From: Thermococcus henrietii
Lineage (GTDB): Archaea; Methanobacteriota_B; Thermococci; Thermococcales; Thermococcaceae
Direction: 5' to 3'
Assembly: GCF_900198835.1 (NCBI RefSeq)
Contig: NZ_LT900021.1
Coordinates: 434,001 to 498,000, forward strand
Length of the DNA stretch: 64,000 nucleotides
A program made the position numbers and the translations under genes. A model generated the notes under the pieces. The model was not told the DNA's origin. It worked only from the letters and a program-made list of their open reading frames with translations, and searched no databases. The stretch's first letter is position 1, and each line of letters opens with the position of its first letter. Below are positions 10,836 through 25,460 of the stretch, piece by piece.

Positions 10836-10898
10836 CCAAAAGTTTTATACACCTACCGTGACCATATACCACTAAAGATGAATAAACTATCGTTAGTG
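10836..10898 (+). promoter_or_regulatory. TrmBL1 promoter with an inverted repeat
   Basis: CCAAAAGTTTTATAC at 10836-10850 is the BRE/TATA element. Downstream, CACTAA (10870-10875) and TTAGTG (10893-10898) form an inverted repeat with a 17-base gap around the expected transcription start. A ribosome site GGGGGAA follows before ATG 10918. The inverted repeat may be an autoregulatory site, but it does not match the known TATCAC-N5-GTGATA operator. Confidence 0.5.
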
Positions 10899-10917: not shown

Positions 10918-11943
10918 ATGAGGGAGGAGGAAATCATTGAGAAGCTCCAGAAGCTCGGACTCACGAAGTACGAGAGCTTAGCGTACATAACCCTTCTCAA
11001 GCTCGGCCCGAGCAAGGCCACCGACATAACCAAGGAGAGCGGAATTCCGCACACGAGGGTCTACGACGTCCTCAGCTCGCTCCACAGGAAGGGCTTCGTT
11101 GACGTTATGCACGGGACTCCGAGGCTCTACCGCCCGGTTAACCCCGAGGTCGTCCTCGAGCGCATAAAGGAGGAGTTCATTGAGGACATTGAGAAGCTCA
11201 AGGAGGCGTTCGTCGAGCTCTACAAGCAGACCCACGGGCAGGAGTTGCCCGAGATATGGACGATTCTCGGCTTCGACAACACCCTTGAGAGGGTTCAGCA
11301 CATAATAAGGACCGCCCGCTACGAGGTTCTAATCAACACGCCCTACGAGTTCCTCGAGCTTCTCAGACGGGACATAAAGGCCAGGAAGGACGTAATCTTC
11401 GTGATAATCACAAACCTGCCCGATGAAATCCCCGACTGGCTCAAGGCGGACAACATACTCCTCGCGAGAACCGGCGGTGCCCCCTGGCTCATGGCGAGCT
11501 GGATAATCGGCGACGCGGACTACTCGATATTCTTCGGCGCGATTCCCAAGGACAAGAGGCGGGAGAAGTTCTACTCCTTCTGGGCCAAGAGCCCCAGGGC
11601 GGTCTTCCAGTACATGCACTGGTTCTACACGATTTACTTCGACAACAGCGAGGTGGTCAAACCCATCAACTACGAGGCCCTCTCAAAGCCCCTGACCCTC
11701 GTGAACGTCAGGACCCTTATCACGATACTCAAACACGTTGGCCTTCCGAGGGAGGCCGAAATCGTTGGAAAGCTCGTCGATACGAGGGAGCCGGTGGAGC
11801 TCCACGGGAAGATTGTTGACTACGAGTACACCCCGCTCGTGGCCAACGTCACAATCGAGGCCGGTGGCAACCGCTGGAAGGTCGGCGGAATAAGCAGTTA
11901 CGTCGAGGACGTCGAGGGCGAGAAGTTCATACTCCTTGAGTGA
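10918..11943 (+). CDS. trmBL1: TrmB-family sugar-responsive transcription regulator (TrmBL1/Tgr type)
   Basis: A 341-residue TrmB-family regulator. Residues 1-80 are a winged helix (LQKLGLTKYESLAYITLLKL, then SGIPHTRVYDVLSSLHRKGF), followed by a short coiled segment and a C-terminal sugar-binding domain ending VEDVEGEKFILLE. In Pyrococcus and Thermococcus the orthologue (TrmBL1 or Tgr) represses glycolytic and sugar-uptake genes and activates gluconeogenic genes through TATCAC-N5-GTGATA sites, relieved by maltotriose-type sugars. A close match to this site lies before the GH57 gene at 23714. It is followed at once by glycogen synthase, which fits a regulator of polysaccharide use. Confidence 0.88.
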   Translation: MREEEIIEKLQKLGLTKYESLAYITLLKLGPSKATDITKESGIPHTRVYDVLSSLHRKGFVDVMHGTPRLYRPVNPEVVLERIKEEFIEDIEKLKEAFVELYKQTHGQELPEIWTILGFDNTLERVQHIIRTARYEVLINTPYEFLELLRRDIKARKDVIFVIITNLPDEIPDWLKADNILLARTGGAPWLMASWIIGDADYSIFFGAIPKDKRREKFYSFWAKSPRAVFQYMHWFYTIYFDNSEVVKPINYEALSKPLTLVNVRTLITILKHVGLPREAEIVGKLVDTREPVELHGKIVDYEYTPLVANVTIEAGGNRWKVGGISSYVEDVEGEKFILLE

Positions 11944-11948
11944 TGCCT

Positions 11949-13295
11949 ATGCGCGTCCTCATACTCTCTTTCGAATACCTGCCGGTTAAGGTCGGTGGTT
12001 TGGCGGAGGCCGTTACGAGCATAGCTGAAGGTCTTGTCGAGCTCGGCAACGAGGTAATCGTCTTCACCCCCGACCATGGGCGGAACCTCGGTGAGCCGTT
12101 TCTCACTTTCAGGCTCTCCTTTGAGGGCAGGACCGTCGAGGTAACCGCCAGAAAGAGGGAGCAGAACGGGGTCACGGTTTACACGCTCTCCGGAGACCTC
12201 CTCGACACCGACGTTTACCCCGACTGGGAGACCCTCCTCAGGAAGGCCGTCCTCTTCGGCAAAGCTTCGGCCGGTCTGCTCAACCACCTTATCGGGACCT
12301 TTAAGCCCGATGTCGTTCACGCCCACGACTGGCACACCGTCTTCGCCCTCGGACTTTTGAAGAAGTACTTCTCTCCCAAAGCCGTTTTCACGGTCCACAG
12401 GCTCAACAAGGCCAGGATTCCAGCGGGCTACTTCCACGAGGCCAACCTTGGTGAGCTCGCGCCTTACCCCGAGATAGACCCCGAGCACACCGCCTGCTAC
12501 ATAGCCGACGCGGTAACGACCGTTAGCAAAAGCTACCTCCTCGAGGAATGGGACTTCTTCAGGAACTTTGACGGCAAGGTGACGCACGTCTTCAACGGCA
12601 TAGACTGCTCCTTCTGGAGCGAGGAGCTCCTTGAGAACGCCGATAGGCCGAGGGAGGGGCGGAGACGGCTAATCCTCCAACGCTTTGGTTTGAGTGACGG
12701 AAAGGCCTTCATGTTCATCGGTCGCTTCGACAGGGCCCAGAAGGGCGTTGACACGCTCCTAAGGGCGATAGAGATACTCTCCGGGGACCCGTCTTTTAAG
12801 GAGATGCGCTTCATTATCGTCGGCAAGGGCGACCCGGGATTAGAGGCCTGGGCCAAAGCCGTTGAGAACCGCTTCCCTGAGAACGTCAAGGTAATCACCG
12901 ACGTCCTGCCGAGGGAAACCGTCCGCGAGCTGTACGGCTCGGTGGACTTCGTGGTGATTCCGTCTTACTTTGAGCCCTTTGGATTGGTTCAGCTTGAGGC
13001 GATGTGCCTCGGGGCGATTCCAATAGCGAGCGCCGTCGGTGGACTCAAGGACACGATAATAGACCTCAACATAGACCCTGAGAACGCCACCGGAATACTC
13101 GTCCCGCCGAGAGATGCATTCGCCCTCGCGAGGGCCATGGTTTCGGCTAAAGAGCTCAACGAAGGAACCCTCGCAAGGCTCCGTGAGAACGCCAAGAAGC
13201 GCGCGAGAAAGGACTTCGCCTGGGAGAAGGCCTGCAGGCGCTACCTGCTCGTTTACACAGGAGCAGTGGACAAGGCGATGCCCTTCCTGCTCTAA
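11949..13295 (+). CDS. glgA: Glycogen synthase (GT5 type)
   Basis: A 448-residue GT-B glycosyltransferase that extends alpha-1,4-glucan from a nucleotide-activated glucose. The GT5 hallmark KVGGLAEAV is near the N-terminus, [10 protein letters not shown] near residue 118, [10 protein letters not shown] near residue 215, and the retaining-enzyme [14 protein letters not shown] motif near residue 340. Start choice: ATG 11949 follows GAGTGATGCCT; ATG 11943 overlapping the TrmBL1 stop is also possible. It overlaps or abuts the regulator gene, so the two are one operon. Archaeal enzymes of this type are single proteins, shorter than plant or bacterial starch synthases. Confidence 0.9.
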
Positions 13296-23319: not shown

Positions 23320-23628
23320 CTACTCCCCGGGTCCATTGATGCAGGACATGTTCATTGAAAGGAGCATCTCCACGTAACCGCTTTCGAGGTTCTCGCGGAT
23401 TTTACCGGCCAGCTCTCTGAGCTCCTCCTCTTCAAGCGGTTTCTTCGTTTTCAGCCACTTTATCAGCCCGTCCCTCTTGTCGAGGATTACGACGTCTCCT
23501 TCGGTGATGAGCGGGACGTAGTTCATCTTTATTCCGTAAAGCTCCTCCGCGAAGGCCAGCTTCGCCCTCAGCAGTTCGAGGTAGTTGGCCAGCTCCTCCC
23601 CAAGGAGTTCCCTCAAGAGCCTTTTCAT
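23320..23628 (-). CDS. Hypothetical 102-residue protein
   Basis: Small soluble protein, family not recognised. It has a helical N-terminus (RLLRELLGEELANYLELLRA), a beta section (YVPLITEGDVVILDKRDGLI) and a helical C-terminus with two methionine-rich turns (MLLSMNMSC). GGTGGGAGA directly precedes ATG 23628. The upstream side is shared with the divergent GH57 gene, so expression of the two could be linked. Confidence 0.65.
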   Translation of the reverse strand: MKRLLRELLGEELANYLELLRAKLAFAEELYGIKMNYVPLITEGDVVILDKRDGLIKWLKTKKPLEEEELRELAGKIRENLESGYVEMLLSMNMSCINGPGE

Positions 23629-23713
23629 TCTCCCACCACATGTGCTTTGCTGGACAGCTTTATTAACCTATCGGGCAGATATGGGTAGGAAAAGGCGATA
23701 AGGGTTGAGGACG

Positions 23714-23730
23714 TATCACTATCGGTGAGA
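23714..23730 (+). promoter_or_regulatory. Candidate TrmBL1/Tgr operator (TGM) before the GH57 gene
   Basis: TATCAC at 23714-23719, five bases, then GTGAGA at 23725-23730 matches the Thermococcales glycolytic motif TATCAC-N5-GTGATA at 11 of 12 positions. It overlaps the ribosome site of the GH57 gene and lies downstream of a likely TATA (CTTTATTAA near 23656-23664). A site downstream of the TATA box is the repressive arrangement for Tgr. Confidence 0.65.
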
Positions 23731-23732
23731 CC

Positions 23733-25460
23733 ATGTTCATGAAGTACGCCCACCACTTTCACGCCTACCAGCCGGGCGACATAGTTTACGTTGAGGACGG
23801 CGACGGCTCCGGGCCGATAGAGTACGAGGAGCGGAAAAGCCCGGTCGCGATTAGAATCGGCGATGAGGACGTTAGGGGCGAGAACTGGACACGGGCGATG
23901 CTCTACTCCTATGAGCGGATTTCCGATGTTCTCTCAAGGCTCAGGGGAGTCAGCGTCGATATCGAGCCCTTCACGTTCCTCATGCTCCTTAAGTACAGGA
24001 GGAATGTCTTTGAAGATGCCGTTGAGCTTCTTAAGAACCTTGACGCCGTTCCGACGGTTCCCTTCCACCCGATAATGCCCCACCTCGACGAGTTTGAGCA
24101 GAGAATCCTTGCAAGGGTTTCCTTTGACTTCTACGCCCCTCTGATTGGCGACAAAAGCGTCATCGGCTACTGGCTTCCGGAAGCCGTGATAACGAGAAGG
24201 ACCGTTCAGCTCATTGAATCCCTCACTGATAGGAAGCTCGTCTTCCTGCTCGATGAAAGACAGCTACTCTACGACTTCCCGCAGGCGAAGTATTCGTGCA
24301 ACCGCTACTCCAACTCCTTCGTCTTCGGTCGTGAGTGGGGCCTGAGCGACGCCTTCGCCTTCAACATCCTTGATGTCCAAGGGCTGGTGAGCGAGACACT
24401 CTCTCGGAGGGACGACTACAAGGAGAACCTAGGCGTTCCCTACCTGGTCTTCACCGCGAGCGACCTCGAGAGCCTGCTCGGAAATCCTGCACAGCTCGAG
24501 CGCTTCGTTGCCTGGATGGAGGGCCTTGAGAGAAACGGAGTTGAACGGATTTCGGCGCCTTCCTTCGTCTGGAAGAAGCTCTCCGGCGAATTCAAGCGCC
24601 TCAAGGGCGAGTGCTCCTTCGAGATGCCCGTCAAAGAGTTCTCCAGCTGGAGCGACTACCTCGACCTGAGCCTTGACGGCAAGACGAGCGACTCGCGCTG
24701 GCTCGGTTACCGAAGGGCCGATGGAAGGGTCTTCGCGAGGGAAATAAACGGAAGAAAAATCTCCCAGCTCTGGAAGGTAGCCTTCACGCGCCTTTTCGGC
24801 GAGCTCAACAGGACGGTGAGGCTCGGCGTTTTAAAGGGTCTGAAAGAGCTTAACGCCGACCCCGAGGAGTTCCTGGTCAGGTATGCGCGGGTCTTCTTCA
24901 GGGATTACTACGACTACTTCGGCCTGAGCACGTCTCTCAACTACGTCCTCGAGCCTGCCGACGGCGATATGGACGCCCTACCGCTCGGCAGAGCATACTA
25001 CCTCATGCTCCTCGCCAACCACTCCTGCCCGCGCTTCTGGGAGAACCTCGACACCCGCGTTGCCTTCTCCAACGTCTCGGTCATGGCGAAGGCTCTGATT
25101 GAGCTGATGAAGTATTTCGAGGGAAGCGAGCTTCAGTCGCTCTTTATCGGGGCGTATCTCAAGATGCTCCGCTTTGAGGACCTCTACCACGTATGGAACC
25201 TTTCCGCGATGCCGTCAATCGAGGGCTGGGAGACGGGTGAAGAGGCCTGGCGCGAGGCTTTGAAGCCCGAGGTTCCAACGAGCGGCTACAACGTCGTGAC
25301 GAGAGCCGCGCTCTACGTAGGAAAACGTGACCTCTGGGGCGACCTGAGAAGCCTCATTGAAGGCTACAACCTCGAGTGGGCAACCGCGGACACCGGCCAC
25401 ATCCCCGGCGAAAGGCACGGCCTTTGGGAGAACTCGGAGTACTGCGAACACCGGGGGTAG
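23733..25460 (+). CDS. Glycoside hydrolase family 57 protein
   Basis: A 575-residue GH57 enzyme, a family of heat-stable amylases, amylopullulanases, 4-alpha-glucanotransferases and branching enzymes. The N-terminal HFHAYQPGD is the first GH57 motif, GYWLPEAV near residue 145 the third (region of the glutamate nucleophile in the family), and FTASDLE near 243 the probable fourth with its acid aspartate. The helical C-terminal part is long. ATG 23733 is chosen for spacing from GGTG; ATG 23739 is possible. The overlapping TrmBL1-type operator suggests induction by malto-oligosaccharides. No signal peptide, so cytoplasmic. Confidence 0.87.
   Translation: MFMKYAHHFHAYQPGDIVYVEDGDGSGPIEYEERKSPVAIRIGDEDVRGENWTRAMLYSYERISDVLSRLRGVSVDIEPFTFLMLLKYRRNVFEDAVELLKNLDAVPTVPFHPIMPHLDEFEQRILARVSFDFYAPLIGDKSVIGYWLPEAVITRRTVQLIESLTDRKLVFLLDERQLLYDFPQAKYSCNRYSNSFVFGREWGLSDAFAFNILDVQGLVSETLSRRDDYKENLGVPYLVFTASDLESLLGNPAQLERFVAWMEGLERNGVERISAPSFVWKKLSGEFKRLKGECSFEMPVKEFSSWSDYLDLSLDGKTSDSRWLGYRRADGRVFAREINGRKISQLWKVAFTRLFGELNRTVRLGVLKGLKELNADPEEFLVRYARVFFRDYYDYFGLSTSLNYVLEPADGDMDALPLGRAYYLMLLANHSCPRFWENLDTRVAFSNVSVMAKALIELMKYFEGSELQSLFIGAYLKMLRFEDLYHVWNLSAMPSIEGWETGEEAWREALKPEVPTSGYNVVTRAALYVGKRDLWGDLRSLIEGYNLEWATADTGHIPGERHGLWENSEYCEHRG

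Follow-up and report, generated by a model that had tools for sequence, protein, structure and literature searches.

In the 64-kb window, by which we mean the whole 64,000-nucleotide stretch of Thermococcus henrietii DNA analysed here, a gene for a GH57 enzyme, psmA, is preceded by a palindrome resembling the operator of the regulator TrmBL1 (Tgr), and a gene for this regulator lies in the same window. The locus therefore raises the question of whether the palindrome is an operator through which TrmBL1 controls psmA, or whether the same letters serve another gene, another regulator or no regulator at all. On the evidence below, we consider it highly probable that positions 23714–23730 form a TrmBL1 (Tgr) operator that represses psmA and is released by malto-oligosaccharide, a prediction drawn from sequence comparison.

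A TGM palindrome precedes psmA

On the forward strand, positions 23714–23730 read TATCACTATCGGTGAGA (TATCAC-TATCG-GTGAGA). This predicted TrmBL1 site agrees with the consensus of the Thermococcales glycolytic motif (TGM), TATCACN5GTGATA, at 11 of 12 positions, as the initial annotation had claimed; the lone mismatch is at position 16, where G takes the place of T. It begins 19 bp ahead of the psmA ATG at 23733 and is the only site with one mismatch or fewer in the window. Under a first-order model, 64 kb should contain 0.044 such sites, and the 45 positions ahead of any single gene about 3 × 10⁻⁵. A scan of the window allowing three mismatches was barely above chance, yielding 20 sites against a shuffle mean of 13.6, with 5 of 100 shuffles as high. 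Because the G at position 16 falls outside the motif obtained by chromatin immunoprecipitation (ChIP) in P. furiosus, which has T or A there (PMC4706686), the affinity of the operator may be lower. Some motif matches, fbp among them, were reported as unbound in the same study.

The gene that follows (psmA, 23733–25460, forward strand) encodes a protein of 575 aa. The earlier GH57 label for this gene holds and can be refined to a PSMA-like maltose-forming amylase homologue: the product matches the PSMA-like N and C domains in Pfam (PF22159, 545.7 bits; PF22160, 372.5 bits) and can be aligned end to end with PDB 4cmr. Its catalytic pair, E150 and D244, aligns with residues 153 and 253 of 4cmr and is invariant across nine aligned homologues; provided that 4cmr is numbered in the same way, these residues are equivalent to the catalytic pair E153/D253 described in a homologue (PMC8790579). 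The two domains and the catalytic Glu and Asp together predict maltose-forming activity. In a related Thermococcus, levels of a PSMA homologue were reported to be higher on xylan than on glucose, cellulose or xylose, although the comparison with xylose did not reach significance (PMC8790579), an observation that does not bear directly on malto-oligosaccharide control. In one other genome (G028:C1:545448-547160), psmA is found in four matched pieces, two of them with an in-frame stop, behind an intact TGM promoter.

The site lies downstream of conserved promoter elements

Upstream of the site, the psmA promoter has a BRE-like element, GGAAAAGG (23688–23695, forward strand), and a TATA-like element, GATAAG (23697–23702, forward strand). 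Both look weak in the window, and their GAAA and ATAA letters are kept at the same fixed spacing in relatives. Combining this conserved spacing with the published T. kodakarensis medians to the start site (33 bp for BRE and 23 bp for TATA; PMC4247193) puts the predicted psmA transcription start near 23724, on the initial G of GGTGA. The base before it is a pyrimidine, for which a preference at −1 has been reported (PMC5316973). Relative to this predicted start, the operator would span about −10 to +7 and the psmA mRNA would carry a 9-nt leader, next to reported median leader lengths of 16 nt in T. kodakarensis and 12 nt in T. onnurineus. The likely Shine–Dalgarno sequence of the open reading frame (ORF) starting at 23733 is GGTGA (23724–23728, forward strand), which overlaps the proximal half of the operator, so that the proposed overlap with the ribosome site is confirmed.

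In P. furiosus, 21 of 28 promoter TGM sites are reported to lie directly downstream of BRE/TATA, a TGM downstream of the promoter is associated with repression, and 9 of 9 such templates were repressed in vitro (PMC4706686). The psmA site is likewise downstream of BRE/TATA, and the conserved elements together with the predicted start support the earlier proposal that it occupies the repressing position. Given this placement together with the evidence below, psmA is very probably repressed by TrmBL1/Tgr.

The site is conserved with psmA within the genus

Relatives of psmA were found in 84 of 94 genomes. We read the upstream region in 82 of these, 52 of which belong to the same genus, and omitted G048 and G085 as fragments. 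Most orthologues within the genus conserve the site: in 42 of the 52 genomes a match with no more than two mismatches lies no further than 60 bp from the start (38 with one mismatch, 4 with two), and the other 10 lack it. All 42 share the same left half and GGTGA, whereas the 5-nt spacer comes in 15 versions; position 16 is G in 40 of them and A in 2. Among 23 non-redundant promoters, 6 of 6 left-half columns were invariant, compared with 6 of 87 columns outside the site. None of the 30 genomes outside the genus has a site with one mismatch or better, and two-mismatch sites occur there in G087 and G089.

Within the genus, a shorter psmA type (74–100% identity to the window protein) is present in 44 of 52 genomes, 41 of them with the site, and a longer type (57–59% identity) in 8 of 52, one with the site. 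Three short-type genes lack it: in G049 the site seems to have been shortened by one spacer base, and in G046 and G063 psmA is preceded by another gene, KaiC-like as read. At several loci where the site is absent (L137, L139, L140, L141, L142, L143 and L146), psmA follows an ORF that looks by eye like a KaiC-like ATPase, sometimes with a small ORF, in an apparent operon.

The 104-bp intergenic region is shared with a divergent gene of 102 aa (23320–23628, minus strand), whose product has no Pfam or NCBIfam match. Its TATA-like element, TTAATAAA on the minus strand (23659–23666), is similar, by eye, in most of the 23 promoters, and the gene keeps its position in 50 of the 52 same-genus genomes. 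The site might mainly serve this gene, with TrmBL1 bound about 60 bp upstream of its TATA activating it on peptides and psmA being repressed too or only incidentally. We regard this as unlikely. In its favour, the TGM is upstream of the divergent promoter, the position reported as activating in P. furiosus, where such sites lie up to 156 bp upstream and one is thought to act both ways (PF1538/PF1539). Against it, the divergent pair persists without a TGM (for example in G020, G027, G073–G082 and G084). The spacing also differs between the two genes: the site is 19–22 bp from the psmA start (34 in three genomes with a different chosen start), whereas the divergent gene lies anywhere from about 103 to 143 bp away.

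The same motif precedes glycolytic genes

The 2.16-Mb genome to which the window belongs contains 13 sites with at most one mismatch, compared with 3 for the reversed pattern and 1.5 expected from the first-order model. Eleven of the 13 precede ORFs matching glycolytic, gluconeogenic or alpha-glucan genes, namely GH57 amylase, GAPN, GAPOR, FBPase, enolase, TIM, psmA, ADP-glucokinase, maltodextrin phosphorylase, iPGM and FBA. These names rest on partial ORFs, except for psmA, whose whole ORF was matched to Pfam, and many of the matches fall below curated whole-protein cut-offs because the ORFs were read in part only. No target gene could be named at L124 (C1:1411202) or L126 (C1:1957712), and a search with the neighbouring ORF, made for L126 only, gave no hit. 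As read from the sequence, the FBPase site precedes the TATA of that gene, the arrangement expected where a gluconeogenic gene is activated. A TrmBL1/Tgr gene and copies of the motif ahead of glycolytic genes thus occur in the same genome.

Two-mismatch sites were rejected as evidence, being mostly noise (52 in this genome versus 47 for the reversed pattern). Two such sites with a merged Shine–Dalgarno sequence lie before an ATP-grasp acyl-CoA-ligase-type gene (L133, G000:C1:1930021) and before porD (L127, G000:C1:158102); the por delta gene is reported to carry a TrmBL1 site in P. furiosus.

Across the 94 genomes of the family, we counted 1,216 sites with at most one mismatch versus 284 for the control, and 70 of 74 high-quality genomes have a TrmBL1 match at E ≤ 1e-80. 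Three genomes without such a match (G004, G006 and G008; 99% complete, in few contigs) had 1, 1 and 3 sites versus 5, 3 and 2 for the control, and no merged operator and Shine–Dalgarno site. All three belong to group g3, whose TrmBL1-bearing members also show little excess (sites/control: G005 5/6, G007 6/4, G009 7/9, G010 3/0, G011 6/2 and G012 6/5), so the dependence on TrmBL1 across genomes is confounded with genus. Outside g3, some TrmBL1-bearing genomes lack an excess (G082 4/5 and G075 10/9). The last of the four high-quality genomes without a TrmBL1 match is G065, which is 91% complete in about 210 contigs and has 9 sites versus 3 for the control. The fragmentary G035 and G051, also without a match, have 10 versus 2 each; missing contigs may well be the reason for the absent match. 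This comparison, confounded as it is with genus, weakly suggests that the motif excess depends on TrmBL1, in the same direction as the other tests. The g3 genomes (G004–G012) show little or no TGM excess even with TrmBL1, and their regulon may be much reduced or their motif diverged.

The predicted operator overlaps the Shine–Dalgarno sequence

The pattern TATCAC-N4-GGTGA-N3–6-ATG has 261 matches in the 94 genomes, versus 19 with one permuted left half. Requiring the exact left half and allowing any base before GTGA, we found an ATG 3–6 nt on in 235 matches among 61 same-genus genomes; the same search gave 44 further matches with an ATG at 7–10 nt (65 of 109 rows being second ATGs of counted sites) and 76 at 11–14 nt with second ATGs still included, all of these being counts of matches and not of sites, as the palindrome can match both strands and one site can have two ATGs. 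In the genome of the window, 7 of the 13 one-mismatch sites contain GGTGA and end 2–4 nt before the ATG (those of enolase, TIM, psmA, glucokinase, PGM, aldolase and GAPN); in the window, GGTGA occurs in the last 16 nt before only 5 of 32 hand-picked ORF starts.

These counts bear on the idea that the stretch is only a core promoter element joined to a Shine–Dalgarno sequence, which we judge very unlikely. TATCAC does lie near −10 relative to the predicted start, a region in which a promoter-proximal element has been reported (PMC5316973), but an A/T-rich element would not require this exact hexamer. GGTGA fits the reported Shine–Dalgarno consensus GGDGRD, and group g3 has little motif excess with or without TrmBL1; yet none of the 42 orthologues departs from the left half even as the flanks drift, and the motif precedes glycolytic genes. 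The single permuted control and the strict conservation of the left half thus argue against a core promoter and Shine–Dalgarno sequence alone, and in favour of an operator.

The window encodes a full-length match to TrmBL1

The regulator gene that had been placed at 10.9 kb is indeed trmBL1 (10918–11943, forward strand; 341 aa). The NCBIfam TrmBL1 equivalog NF047390 is its best family, spanning residues 1–341 with a score of 628.1 bits, below the curated cut-off of 650, and the next family scores 139 bits. The product also has the TrmB helix–turn–helix and sugar-binding domains (PF01978, 91.1 bits; PF11495, 176.1 bits) and is the only full-length TrmBL1 match in the genome. Within residues 1–80, 76 of 80 are identical to the protein of G023, and the Y49-D50 pair, residues named in PMC4158304, is present in TrmBL1 at 30 of 30 loci examined, the window included. 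Although the regulator gene is only 13 kb from psmA, this nearness says nothing about binding and was set aside as evidence.

Downstream of trmBL1 is a glgA-type glycogen synthase gene (11943–13295, forward strand), whose start codon overlaps the trmBL1 stop by one base (11941–11943, TGATG). The initial annotation described the regulator as fused by overlap to glycogen synthase; the overlap is real, and the genes are not fused, as stop and start merely share one base. We examined the context of trmBL1 at 30 loci, from 83 genomes with TrmBL1, and found glgA at 21, although some loci may end too early. The one-base spacing occurs at 7 of these 21 (the six closest loci, L001 and L086–L090, a set that includes the window; and L107, where the glgA match starts only at residue 3), and the other 14 have a gap of 30–54 nt after trmBL1, so the overlap was rejected as a general feature. 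A TGM-like site upstream of trmBL1 (10867–10883, forward strand) has four mismatches in the window and in five close loci, and two or three in the other 24 of 30; this erosion suggests that self-regulation of trmBL1 may be weakened in this sub-clade.

A different TrmB-family protein, or some other regulator, could use the psmA site, but we find this very improbable given a TrmBL1 DNA-binding domain that is nearly unchanged and other sites in the genome that precede the classical Tgr/TrmBL1 kinds of gene. The idea draws on two further matches in the genome to the N-terminal part of TrmBL1 (query residues 4–133 and 4–140), on the confounding of the motif–TrmBL1 link with genus, and on the T. kodakarensis RuBisCO gene, whose TGM-like site has been proposed to bind a repressor other than Tgr (PMC12628685). 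Finally, it is scarcely credible that the inverted repeat acts in RNA, UCAC pairing with GUGA to hide the Shine–Dalgarno sequence: a 5-bp hairpin is possible in psmA RNA, but its minimum free energy (MFE) of −3.2 kcal/mol at 37 °C is no better than that of shuffles (z +0.88), and the heat at which the organism grows would weaken it further. In addition, a transcript from the predicted start would not include the left half, and column counts of the 42 orthologues contain no compensatory changes, so this candidate was rejected.

The earlier assignment of the GH57 enzyme to the malto-oligosaccharide regulon is thus supported, as a prediction, by orthologue conservation, the company of the motif in the genome, promoter geometry and the near-unchanged DNA-binding domain of the regulator.

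A model for control of psmA

In P. furiosus, TrmBL1 was reported to be bound under gluconeogenic conditions and unbound under glycolytic conditions (PMC4706686); Tgr is released by maltotriose, and TrmBL1 by maltose, maltotriose and fructose (PMC4158304). By analogy with such release at other promoters, we propose that when malto-oligosaccharides are scarce, as on peptides or pyruvate, TrmBL1 would sit on the site at about −10 to +7 and keep RNA polymerase off the psmA promoter. Binding of maltotriose or maltose would cause TrmBL1 to leave, and an mRNA with a 9-nt leader starting GGUGA would then be made and translated into maltose-forming amylase. The predicted use of psmA is accordingly on when malto-oligosaccharides are available and off on peptides.

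The position of GGTGA also leads us to a tentative proposal, which we hold as a possibility: many TrmBL1 operators in Thermococcus may have the Shine–Dalgarno sequence itself as their promoter-proximal half, so that one stretch of DNA is both operator and translation signal. Because that sequence already spells half of the palindrome, a gene would join the regulon by gaining just TATCAC at the right distance, as psmA would have done in this genus and not in sister lineages. In a sister group (for example G074, G077 and G080), psmA keeps GGTGATA and the left half is absent, which fits an operator built on a pre-existing Shine–Dalgarno sequence. If the proposal is true, repressor strength and translation rate cannot evolve independently. 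Operator mutants in such promoters should also keep GGTGA; otherwise, a change in translation could be mistaken for a change in repression. A search of three papers on TrmBL1/TGM (PMC4706686, PMC4158304 and PMC10667668) found no mention of the term Shine–Dalgarno, a narrow basis for novelty.

Comparison with known systems

The psmA product shares both Pfam domains and the catalytic Glu and Asp with PSMA-type GH57 enzymes of Pyrococcus sp. ST04 (PDB 4cmr) and Thermococcus sp. 2319x1E (EGIDFPOO_00674). It differs in being 22 residues shorter than the 4cmr chain (575 versus 597) and is 54–59% identical to six longer homologues aligned; in the portions of the PSMA literature that we compared, we found no description of a shorter-type enzyme.

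Like TrmBL1 and Tgr, the regulator in the window is a full-length match, with a DNA-binding domain nearly identical to that of G023. Unlike them, its gene adjoins glgA with a one-base overlap and has an eroded TGM of its own. T. kodakarensis TK1769 is reported to adjoin the MD operon (PMC4158304), whereas trmBL1 in the window has no such neighbour among the ORFs scanned. Those ORFs, a part of the ones between 1.1 and 15.7 kb, include no maltodextrin transporter, a neighbour that is not strictly defining for the regulator.

The selected ChIP table for P. furiosus has no entry labelled as a PSMA homologue, a comparison that covers its labelled entries, hypothetical proteins aside. Against this background, and with the original T. 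kodakarensis Tgr microarray tables outside the comparison, psmA is a well-supported new predicted member of a known regulon and a fairly ordinary target within it, which would bring into this well-studied archaeal regulon an alpha-glucan enzyme whose homologue has a solved structure. Its site shares the pattern TATCAC-N5-GTGATA with the TGM of TrmBL1 (P. furiosus PF0124) and Tgr (T. kodakarensis TK1769), is placed just downstream of BRE/TATA as at most promoter sites in P. furiosus, and belongs to a set of motif sites that keep the same gene company. The site departs from the known TGM in having GTGAGA in place of GTGATA, and in an operator half merged with the Shine–Dalgarno sequence, a small structural novelty.
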